Below are positions 38,245 to 41,507 of a stretch of DNA of 64,000 nucleotides, piece after piece; within the stretch, counting starts at the first letter, position 1, and the number at the start of each line of letters is the position of its first letter. The notes below the pieces were generated by a model. It saw only the letters and a program-made list of their open reading frames with translations, was not told the origin of the DNA and ran no database searches. Position numbers and translations under genes: made by a program. This DNA is from Rhodospirillaceae bacterium. GTDB taxonomy: Bacteria > Pseudomonadota > Alphaproteobacteria > Rhodospirillales > Rhodospirillaceae. Location: positions 620,001-684,000 of the forward strand of contig JAQWQC010000006.1 in the NCBI GenBank assembly GCA_029245025.1, read 5' to 3'.

Positions 38245-39054
38245 ATGGCAAATATGCGGAATTTACGATTGCTTCTGTGCGCTGCTATAGCAGGTAGTGT
38301 CTTACCGTCGACAGCAATGGCGCAAACAGACGACCGTCACTTTCGCATAAATTTCGGGCTTGATTACACTACCGGCTCGTACGGGGATGATGAGAAGACA
38401 GAAATTCTCTATGTCCCATTGTCTCTAAGAGCAGAGGATGGCCCCTGGACCGCACGTGCTGTTGTACCTTGGCTTCACGTTAATGGCCCGGCGTTGATTC
38501 TAGATGGCGCTGACGGAGGTAGCGTCGGCACACGAACAACGGAGAGCGCATCAGGACTAGGTGATATATCTCTATCTCTGATGTACAGCTTCGAACAATT
38601 CTACGAAAAGAACTTATTTATTGATTTGACCACGCGTGTAAAAATTCCGACGGCGAGCCTCGAAGCGGGCCTTGGTACGGGCAAGGCCGACGCGGCAGTT
38701 CAAGTTGATTTGGCCCAAGCGATCGGACATTTCATTCCGTTTGCAACGCTTGGTTATAAATGGGCGGGTGTGCCGGAAGGATTCGCTCTTCGAAATACTG
38801 CCTACGGCAGTGTTGGCGTGCAGTATTCTTGGTCAGATACCGTCGCGACCGGGGTGTCTTATGACTATCGGCAATCGTCATTGGAGACGTCATCCGATCC
38901 GCAAGACGCAACCGCCTACCTCAACATTCGGTTTGCCGATGATTGGTCGGTCAACATATACGGTGTGATGGGTTTCGCAGAAAACAGTCCAGACGCTGGC
39001 GGTGGAGTTTCGTTTGTCTACCGCTTCCCTCAGAGAGAGCGACCGGTTCGCTAA
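38245..39054 (+). CDS. putative outer-membrane beta-barrel / transporter-like protein
   Basis: Signal peptide ending AMAQ; alternating beta-strand pattern; C-terminal GGVSFVYRFPQ. Confidence 0.65.
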   Translation: MANMRNLRLLLCAAIAGSVLPSTAMAQTDDRHFRINFGLDYTTGSYGDDEKTEILYVPLSLRAEDGPWTARAVVPWLHVNGPALILDGADGGSVGTRTTESASGLGDISLSLMYSFEQFYEKNLFIDLTTRVKIPTASLEAGLGTGKADAAVQVDLAQAIGHFIPFATLGYKWAGVPEGFALRNTAYGSVGVQYSWSDTVATGVSYDYRQSSLETSSDPQDATAYLNIRFADDWSVNIYGVMGFAENSPDAGGGVSFVYRFPQRERPVR

Positions 39055-39067
39055 AAGCGTTTCTCGC

Positions 39068-40309
39068 TTAAACCATCGGCGGGCGGAAATCGCCGGGACG
39101 TTCTCGTTGAGGGCGTTCTGGTACCGTCGGGCGCTCGACAGGCCGTTGCCGCTCCATGCGCTCTGGCCGCTGGATCGTCGTAGGCCGGATCCGGGCCGGC
39201 CGAACCATTCTAGATGGCCGTAGAACCGTAATCACCGTCCGCACATGGTTGATCTCGCGAGCAGCAATGACTCCATCGACACCTACACGGCCGGTCACGA
39301 CAACCCGATCTCCAGGTTTGATATCTTCTTGCAAACCAAGGCCAGTGACCGGTGCGCCTTGAATGGAAAGACTAACGGTCGCATCGCTTGGGACGTAACC
39401 CTCCAAGTAAACCTCGGTGACACGCTCATCAAACGGCAGCCCTGGTCTTGCCACGACAACATCGGCAGAGAAGGTATCCGCAAGCATACGGCCTGCGACA
39501 AACGCGCGGTTTCCAGCCTCAAGAGGTTCGGCTAAAGCAGCGGAAGACAGATTAACGGTGAGGCCGCCAATCGTGACCGCGTTATTGTCTGCTGTTGTGA
39601 CCGGGCCACGAACCAGAACACGCCCATCGTCGTCGGTCTGATCCAAACGCGATGCTACGATCATGCCGTCATCCATGCGCAAGCCAGAGACCCGAACGAG
39701 GTCGCCCACATTAAGTGCTACGAAAGCTGTTTTCTGGCTCTTATCGCCGGCTAGATTGACGCGAACCGTCTGACCTAGAACGACAAGACGTTCGTTGTCA
39801 TGATCGATACTTGAAATCGGACCGGTGACGGCATGCCGGATTTCCAGTTGCTCTAGTCTCAGGTCACCGCGTGCATCGCGTCTGGCCACCCCTTCAATTA
39901 CCTGACCAATCTTAAGGTCAGAAAGCGTTGCGGGCCGACCGTCACTTTCGACAGCTGTTTTATTGTTGTACTCGAGCTTGAGGCCATTAACGATGATGCT
40001 GCCGAAGCCTGAAATGGTGCCGATGATGCCCGTGCCGCCGATTCCATCGCCACCCGCCTGAGTAACCACACCGGTGCCGCCAATACCGTCACCACCGTCG
40101 TAACTGGCGACAATACCAGTGCCACTGATGCCATCGTCGGAGGTATTCTGGGCAACAATTCCAGTACCGCTGATGCCATCGTCGTAGAGAGCTGCGGAGC
40201 GTTGATTGGGTGGAGTGGCGGCGCAGCCGGCGATCAGGGTGAGCGCGAGGGTTGCGGCGACGGTGCGTCGCAGCGCAAATTTCTCTGTCCTCACCCGGTT
40301 TTTGTCCAT
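39068..40309 (-). CDS. DUF5666-type repeat lipoprotein with N-terminal DGI(S/G)GTG(I/V) repeats
   Basis: Lipobox TLIAGCAAT; four DGIxGTGxx units; repeated beta modules FGSIIVNGLKLEYNN..; Pro/Arg-rich tail. Confidence 0.75.
   Translation of the reverse strand: MDKNRVRTEKFALRRTVAATLALTLIAGCAATPPNQRSAALYDDGISGTGIVAQNTSDDGISGTGIVASYDGGDGIGGTGVVTQAGGDGIGGTGIIGTISGFGSIIVNGLKLEYNNKTAVESDGRPATLSDLKIGQVIEGVARRDARGDLRLEQLEIRHAVTGPISSIDHDNERLVVLGQTVRVNLAGDKSQKTAFVALNVGDLVRVSGLRMDDGMIVASRLDQTDDDGRVLVRGPVTTADNNAVTIGGLTVNLSSAALAEPLEAGNRAFVAGRMLADTFSADVVVARPGLPFDERVTEVYLEGYVPSDATVSLSIQGAPVTGLGLQEDIKPGDRVVVTGRVGVDGVIAAREINHVRTVITVLRPSRMVRPARIRPTTIQRPERMERQRPVERPTVPERPQRERPGDFRPPMV
40016..40183 (-). repeat. 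in-frame tandem repeat DGI(S/G)GTG(I/V)(V/I) x4 in the DUF5666 protein
   Basis: DDGISGTGIVAQNTS / DDGISGTGIVASYDG / GDGIGGTGVVTQAG / GDGIGGTGIIGTISG. Confidence 0.9.
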
Positions 40310-40331: not shown

Positions 40332-41168
40332 TTATTCGTCTAGGCTGTGGTCGTCGTCGAAGAAATACAAGCCGAAATTGAAGCGCTGATCTGCCCCGTC
40401 TTTTCCCTTATCTGCATCAACGTACTCCCTAGCCAGACGGTTTAGAGTCAAAAGGGCTTCCATACCAACCTTTTCCGCCTCTTTTGCCAGTGAATTGACC
40501 GATGATTCGGTTAATTCCCCATAGTGAACGCTACGCTCCAGCATAGGTTTCCCATCACCAATCAGGTTATTAGTGGTTGCGGCTAAATGATCGTGAATAT
40601 TGCGGCCAAAGTAGAACGCTTTTTCATCAAATCCATTTTCCGGCACGAAAGCTTGGCGATTAAGCACAACTCGGTCGTTTTCATCTATGCTGGCAACACC
40701 CAGTCTCAGCCATTCATCGAGCACGGCACGCGGTCTGACATCTTTGGAAATACCTTCTACCAATCCGTCAAATGACGGATCTGCAGGGGATTTCCCTTGT
40801 CTCAATAAAGGGATGGGCTGGCCTTCTGAGTCGGTGGTTAAAGGGTCGCTGACCCATCGAGAGACGATTTGGGCCCCTAAGCCAATAGTTTTTGGCATCT
40901 GCCGAGCTGACGGTTGTTCTGCGCGTAGGCGTTTTACGTCTTTGCGATGAACACCGGTCAACAGGTTTATTCTACTATCTGTTTGGCGTTTCCCTGGGAC
41001 CGGAAAGTCTTCCTCTGCCAAGGCAACGAAAGTCTCTTTGAGAAGATTAGTTAATATGGGCAGAGTAACGCCCTTGCTGATCATAAGGCGCACTAGCGGG
41101 CGCAGCATACGACGCAGCGCAGCAATGAGAGCGTCTGGCGGGCCCACAGAGTTATTAGGCCCGCTCAT
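40332..41168 (-). CDS. DUF6502-family protein, putative HTH regulator
   Basis: LRRMLRPLVRLMISKGVTLPILTNLLKETFVALAEEDF...QTDSRINLLTGVHRKDVKRLR (HTH-like); 22 nt upstream of the DUF5666 gene on the same strand. Confidence 0.75.
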   Translation of the reverse strand: MSGPNNSVGPPDALIAALRRMLRPLVRLMISKGVTLPILTNLLKETFVALAEEDFPVPGKRQTDSRINLLTGVHRKDVKRLRAEQPSARQMPKTIGLGAQIVSRWVSDPLTTDSEGQPIPLLRQGKSPADPSFDGLVEGISKDVRPRAVLDEWLRLGVASIDENDRVVLNRQAFVPENGFDEKAFYFGRNIHDHLAATTNNLIGDGKPMLERSVHYGELTESSVNSLAKEAEKVGMEALLTLNRLAREYVDADKGKDGADQRFNFGLYFFDDDHSLDE

Positions 41169-41218
41169 CAGTTATCGGGCCGAGCCTGATTCTTATTCAT
41201 TCCTATACTTTAGCCCAT

Positions 41219-41237
41219 TGTGGGAAAAATTCCCACA
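41219..41237. promoter_or_regulatory. perfect palindrome, putative operator 1
   Basis: TGTGGGAA-AAA-TTCCCACA, 8-bp perfect half-sites, about 50 bp upstream of the DUF6502 start. Confidence 0.75.
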
Positions 41238-41283
41238 TTTTTATTGACGGAACCCTATATTCTAAACTATCTTAAACCTGTTC

Positions 41284-41300
41284 GTGGGAATATTTCCCAC
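41284..41300. promoter_or_regulatory. palindrome, putative operator 2
   Basis: GTGGGAA-TAT-TTCCCAC, same half-sites as operator 1; centres 64 bp apart. Confidence 0.75.
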
Positions 41301-41363
41301 AAAATGAAACAACGAAGCAGTTGAAACCAACAAGGAAATGCCAACCCAGAGAAACGTGTTCAG

Positions 41364-41507
41364 TACCCCATGTGATCTCGCTTTCTTGTCACTGTCCCTG
41401 AGTCAGTTCTTACCCCGGTGACAGAAAGCTCTAGTTGCCTCCCGCTTTTTCTTGAGGTTCGTTGACGAACGATCAGCTTGAGAGGGCGGGAGGTAGCATT
41501 TTGGGGT
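41364..41507 (+). ncRNA. structured small RNA candidate, possibly 6S RNA (ssrS)-like
   Basis: Closing helix ACCCCA(41365-41370)/TGGGGT(41502-41507); hairpin GCTTTCtTGTCAC(41380-41392)/GTGACAGAAAGC(41418-41429); 14-bp helix CCTCCCGCTTTTTC(41438-41451)/GAGAGGGCGGGAGG(41480-41493). Confidence 0.5.

Follow-up and report, generated by a model that had tools for sequence, protein, structure and literature searches.

Regulators of the TetR/TetO and phage CI/Cro types are local autorepressors, and their operators lie between divergent promoters. The locus described here belongs to a window of 64,000 nucleotides (the whole stretch of DNA that was analysed; Rhodospirillaceae bacterium, contig JAQWQC010000006.1, positions 620,001 to 684,000). 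It resembles these systems in having palindromic operators between divergent promoters, the gene of the putative regulator heading its operon, several sites at helical spacing, and what appears to be a very small regulon. It differs from them in that the divergent product in the clade of the window is an RNA, and from TetR and Xre regulators in that the candidate regulator, DUF6502, matches only PF20112 by sequence, and no solved structure at E<=0.001. The HTH folds of BusR, HetR and GntR/IclR-type winged-HTH regulators are among its weak Foldseek matches (probability up to 0.47), yet with E>0.1 and TM-scores <=0.40 among those named. Likewise, the half-site of the operators is GTGGGA-like, as in the MraZ box. 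MraZ boxes, however, are direct TGGG repeats upstream of mraZ, and this candidate was rejected on geometry, the half-sites of the present operators being inverted around a 3-bp centre and preceding DUF6502, not mraZ. A literature search retrieved no paper naming DUF6502 or PF20112, and a joint search with the half-site strings gave unrelated work only, among the matches listed.

The palindromes and their conservation

Two palindromes with identical half-sites precede the DUF6502 gene:

41220 to 41236, strandless: operator O1, GTGGGAA-AAA-TTCCCAC (GTGGGAAAAATTCCCAC); exact match, position kept in relatives
41284 to 41300, strandless: operator O2, GTGGGAA-TAT-TTCCCAC (GTGGGAATATTTCCCAC); exact match, position kept in relatives

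The earlier note had described them as twin sites with AT-only centres 64 bp apart, and so they are: the start-to-start distance is 64 bp, both centres are AT-only, and the dyad of O1 is lengthened by one base through T/A flanks. O1 and O2 are the only two exact matches to GTGGGAA-N3-TTCCCAC in the window, as against none in 100 dinucleotide shuffles, and the whole 3.09-Mb genome contains three, the third being located between metZ and an allA-like gene.

The sample for comparison comprised 80 DUF6502 genes from GTDB genomes labelled as alpha-, beta-, gamma- and deltaproteobacteria, together with some MAGs labelled otherwise. A near-consensus palindrome occurs within 350 bp upstream of 71 of the 80 genes, against 5 of 80 control stretches of equal length taken inside the genes; the motif therefore recurs upstream of other DUF6502 genes, a point on which the earlier note had made its proposal depend. 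Sites with at most two mismatches number 126 in 28 kb of upstream DNA versus 17 in the 480 kb of the remaining loci, and several of these 17 form tight pairs. When 16 other DUF6502 genomes were scanned whole for GTGGGAW-N3-WTCCCAC, sites were found in 14, almost all of them at the DUF6502 locus. Near-exact sites are also present in Pseudohongiella sp. O18 (L103), a relative in culture. The exact motif is absent from all of 298 other proteobacterial genomes drawn evenly across the phylum, 14 of which carry a distant DUF6502, with near-consensus sites in several; no such site was found near distant DUF6502 proteins with a GLTRK recognition helix (L138-L140).

Closer to the window, among 41 genomes (its own and 40 relatives), exact sites are present in 14, and 13 of these have a DUF6502 orthologue. 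The fourteenth (G040) has a single match inside a LysR-type coding sequence, deemed to be due to chance; this match apart, the relatives lacking the gene have no site. Nearly all orthologues in the relatives are directly preceded by a pair of sites 62-66 bp apart, one genome (G002) having only one site upstream of the gene. The family of the window as a whole has two operators at a spacing of 61-66 bp (mode 63), while several betaproteobacteria have three, about 29 and 34 bp apart and spanning 61-64 bp in total; of that three-site layout, the window's family retains only the outer two.

The best evidence that DUF6502 itself would read the site is the co-divergence of operator and recognition helix. 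Where VH or IH stands directly before the recognition helix (residues 73-74), 191 of 200 half-sites have A at position 6, as against 0 of 20 for DUF6502 paralogues with LQ at these residues. Operator specificity thus shifts with the recognition helix (VH/IH versus LQ); the shift concerns one paralogue clade, and the LQ proteins probably belong to a single clade. Paralogues with variant operators of their own (GTGGGT/C..., GTGTGTATATTACACAC) were observed at loci L034-L040.

The DUF6502 protein and its operon

The genes of the locus are as follows:

40332 to 41168, minus strand: DUF6502 gene, 278 aa, proposed autorepressor (Pfam PF20112, E=1.2e-32; AlphaFold)
39068 to 40309, minus strand: DUF5666 protein, second gene of the operon (Pfam PF18914, E=7e-21)
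38245 to 39054, plus strand: DUF3187-like protein of beta-barrel type, convergent (Pfam, below the curated cut-off)
41168 to 41200, minus strand: upstream ORF of 10 codons, probably leaderless (read by eye from the sequence)

The PF20112 match is full length (residues 13-274) and scores 113 bits against a curated cut-off of 27. It is the sole family matched by all 74 members, HTH families being hit weakly and in at most 2 members, and NCBIfam has no match for DUF6502. AlphaFold (AF2) gave a pLDDT of 87.6 with a 74-sequence alignment and of 70 in a run with 20 sequences. HTH helices are predicted at residues 64-71 and 75-83, the mean pLDDT of residues 61-80 being about 92-95, and the model thereby backs the HTH-like segment that had been noticed earlier in the protein. 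The same model places another HTH-like unit, whose wing has two strands, at about residues 133-169 and a long helix near the C terminus at residues 221-253.

Foldseek searches against PDB and viral structures returned no match at E<=0.001; in the weak part of the PDB list, HTH regulators and sigma factors occur frequently. A profile search of solved structures yielded marginal or spurious matches only, including a marginal one to the phage immunity repressor 8bny (E=0.079) that was not reproduced with a larger alignment. Membership of DUF6502 in a known HTH family (TetR, MarR, GntR, Xre, IclR and others) was rejected, as no significant Pfam, NCBIfam or structure match was obtained (Foldseek E>0.1).

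A DUF5666 relative is found in 64 of the 80 DUF6502 loci, almost always downstream, and a DUF3187-like relative in 47. The stop codon of the upstream ORF overlaps the DUF6502 start (TGATG) and relatives have similar short ORFs, which suggest that translation of the two may be coupled. In one relative (G004), the DUF6502 gene (L030/L062, G004:C12) is split over frames, with two TGA codons inside one match and three partial matches, owing to a frameshift or an assembly error.

Operators are also seen elsewhere. In some gammaproteobacterial loci (L084, L122) a further one lies upstream of the DUF3187-like gene. In two gammaproteobacteria, related secreted proteins with no Pfam match (L157:457-1164, minus strand; L158:1265-1987, plus strand) each have an operator just upstream of their gene, and a gene for an ABC-transporter ATPase is adjacent. 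In the genus of the window, an RNA-like element of high conservation follows the third exact site in the interval that separates metZ from the allA-like gene; it was seen in L013:1501-1640, L001 (reverse), L005, L011, L012, L015, L155 and L156. This element begins at about CGTGCCCGTCAGCGCATGGCCGGAC, directly after the exact operator and a -10-like box, and a weaker palindrome, TTGGGAAnnnTTCCCAA, is located 45 bp upstream in most of them.

Promoter geometry and the candidate divergent RNA

Between and around the operators, the following elements are predicted:

41244 to 41249, plus strand: TTGACG, -35 of the promoter for the divergent RNA, located between O1 and O2 (family alignment; TTGAC kept)
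41268 to 41273, plus strand: TATCTT, -10 of the promoter for the divergent RNA (family alignment)
41207 to 41212, minus strand: TAAAGT, -10-like hexamer of the promoter ahead of DUF6502, 7 bp past O1 (family alignment)
41281 to 41502, plus strand: non-coding RNA candidate of about 220 nt with two covarying helices (fold, covariation)

Relative to the predicted promoter of DUF6502, O1 extends from about -36 to -20; with respect to the divergent promoter, it lies shortly before the -35. In the family, the divergent promoter has a TATnnT -10 in most relatives and a spacer of 16-18 bp. The earlier note had placed O2 upstream of the structured RNA; instead, counted from the start predicted for the RNA, it covers about +4 to +20, and the first covarying helix starts about 100 bp beyond it.

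Other lineages have a different arrangement. Outside the window's family, 34 of 51 loci have the operator closest to DUF6502 followed after 5-8 nucleotides by TANNNT toward DUF6502, as opposed to only 4 of 29 inside it. TTGAC, scored when 4 of its 5 letters were present (background 1.4% per position), is found immediately before the operator in 27 of the 51 outside loci when the divergent strand is read and in 3 of 51 on the other strand, and in most of those TTGAC loci a -10 lies on the far side of the operator. With TTGAC before it and a -10 beyond it, the operator takes up the entire 17-bp spacing between the two elements of a sigma-70 promoter, an arrangement encountered in beta-, gamma- and some alphaproteobacteria. 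A protein bound there would block RNA polymerase, and repression is therefore the simplest reading; judged from promoter sequences, the spacer-filling operator, together with a proximal operator abutting the -10 of the DUF6502 promoter, points to an autorepressor. A very compact form of divergent switch was noted at L073, L080, L081, L098 and L114, where two promoters that face each other and overlap share one operator (ATTATACTTGAC-operator). Several gammaproteobacteria have an alpha/beta hydrolase gene in the divergent position, where some betaproteobacteria encode small proteins that look secreted.

In the window, the divergent switch that had been suspected is backed by a conserved promoter, located between O1 and O2, which reads into a covarying RNA conserved in the bacterial family of the window. 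Its second helix spans about 41434-41497 and is followed by a T tract (41499-41502). Folding favours the plus strand (z -5.6, versus z -1.1 on the minus strand), as do G-U pairs. In the helices, 96.4% of cells are paired and 11 pairs are changed on both sides; none of 500 shuffles was as good on these measures, and slid controls were 40-65% paired. An Rfam scan of the region and its relatives gave no match above threshold. The RNA is similar in length to 6S RNA, a candidate rejected because the locus has no RF00013 match and the 6S RNA of this genome is on contig C13. A small ORF within the RNA (MPTQRNVF...) was likewise discarded, its start being missing in relatives and its frame broken by indels in some.

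Probable repression and its alternatives

Very probably, DUF6502 is a sequence-specific HTH repressor, a dimer of which binds GTGGGAA-N3-TTCCCAC before its own gene and shuts both promoters, as judged from sequence conservation and the structure model. In the mechanism that I infer, the protein dimerises, binds and represses instead of activating, the two sites come into contact, and there is a signal. A DUF6502 dimer would sit on the palindrome ahead of its own gene; O1 would cover the -35 and spacer of the promoter that serves DUF6502-DUF5666, and the two operators together would bracket the divergent promoter of the structured RNA of about 220 nt. Once the operators are occupied, both promoters would be shut, DUF6502 holding down its own level and the RNA staying off until some signal releases the protein. 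The six-turn spacing would allow contact between two dimers, and the conserved distance of 61-66 bp makes cooperative binding or looping plausible. The idea of autoregulation, raised in the earlier note, is favoured by the excess of sites upstream of the gene (71 of 80 versus 5 of 80), by the way gene and site track each other, and by their co-divergence at the recognition helix. Against it, in the window's family the operator is inside the spacer of neither promoter, as it is where repression is argued most strongly, and the forward promoter has a weak -10 (4 of 29).

This last arrangement bears on the possibility that DUF6502, once bound, works as an activator of one or both promoters, for instance of the RNA promoter from O1, in a class I or MerR-type manner. 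Such a role would fit the placement of O1 in the window's family, a short distance before the -35 of the RNA promoter (operator at about -24 relative to it), and a DUF6502 promoter that has a weak -10 and no evident -35. Activation is nonetheless unlikely: in most other lineages the operator separates the two elements of a near-consensus promoter (TTGAC...TAtnAT) that requires no activator and that a bound protein would block, and in the window O2 lies just past the predicted RNA start. Clearly less probable still is that another regulator binds the sites and that DUF6502 is merely its conserved target gene. Binding by DUF6502 is itself inferred, and the operon might be conserved as a target under the control of some other factor; however, each genome has the sites almost exclusively at its DUF6502 locus, they are absent where the gene is missing, those of the paralogues change together with the recognition helix, and an HTH is predicted in DUF6502 by the model.

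Two further explanations do not involve a DNA-binding protein. The palindromes might be RNA hairpins in a leader, with a 7-bp stem and a 3-nt loop, rather than operators; each could form a strong hairpin, and O2 is near the 5' end of the divergent RNA. O1, however, is upstream of both predicted starts and would therefore be in neither transcript, the half-site sequence is kept and not pairing alone, and in many lineages the sites are within promoter spacers, all of which leaves this explanation highly improbable. Two near-identical inverted repeats in close proximity might also be expected from chance or from a dispersed repeat of REP/MITE type, to which next to no weight can be given; it is refuted by the genome copy number (three exact copies only), by their absence from shuffles, and by a position kept over many proteobacterial groups.

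Implications

It is concluded that DUF6502 constitutes an undescribed family of putative DNA-binding repressors with a traceable operator code. A broader proposal is advanced tentatively and with somewhat less than even confidence: DUF6502 may be a new, Proteobacteria-wide family of two-HTH repressors acting through two to three phased operators (about 29, 34 and 63 bp) at a divergent promoter, whose main output in the clade of the window would be an undescribed regulatory RNA, joined by a second operator-controlled RNA-like element (that between metZ and the allA-like gene) in a small RNA-based envelope or metabolic circuit.

To sum up, a protein family with no assigned function, found in many Proteobacteria, becomes a candidate transcription factor with a predicted DNA target, GTGGGAAnnnTTCCCAC, and a predicted pair of specificity residues. 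Its predicted regulon consists of its own operon with DUF5666 and of the divergent gene or RNA, to which a nearby outer-membrane-type gene and a secreted protein would be added in some species; along the same line, the new structured RNA gains a promoter and a likely regulator.
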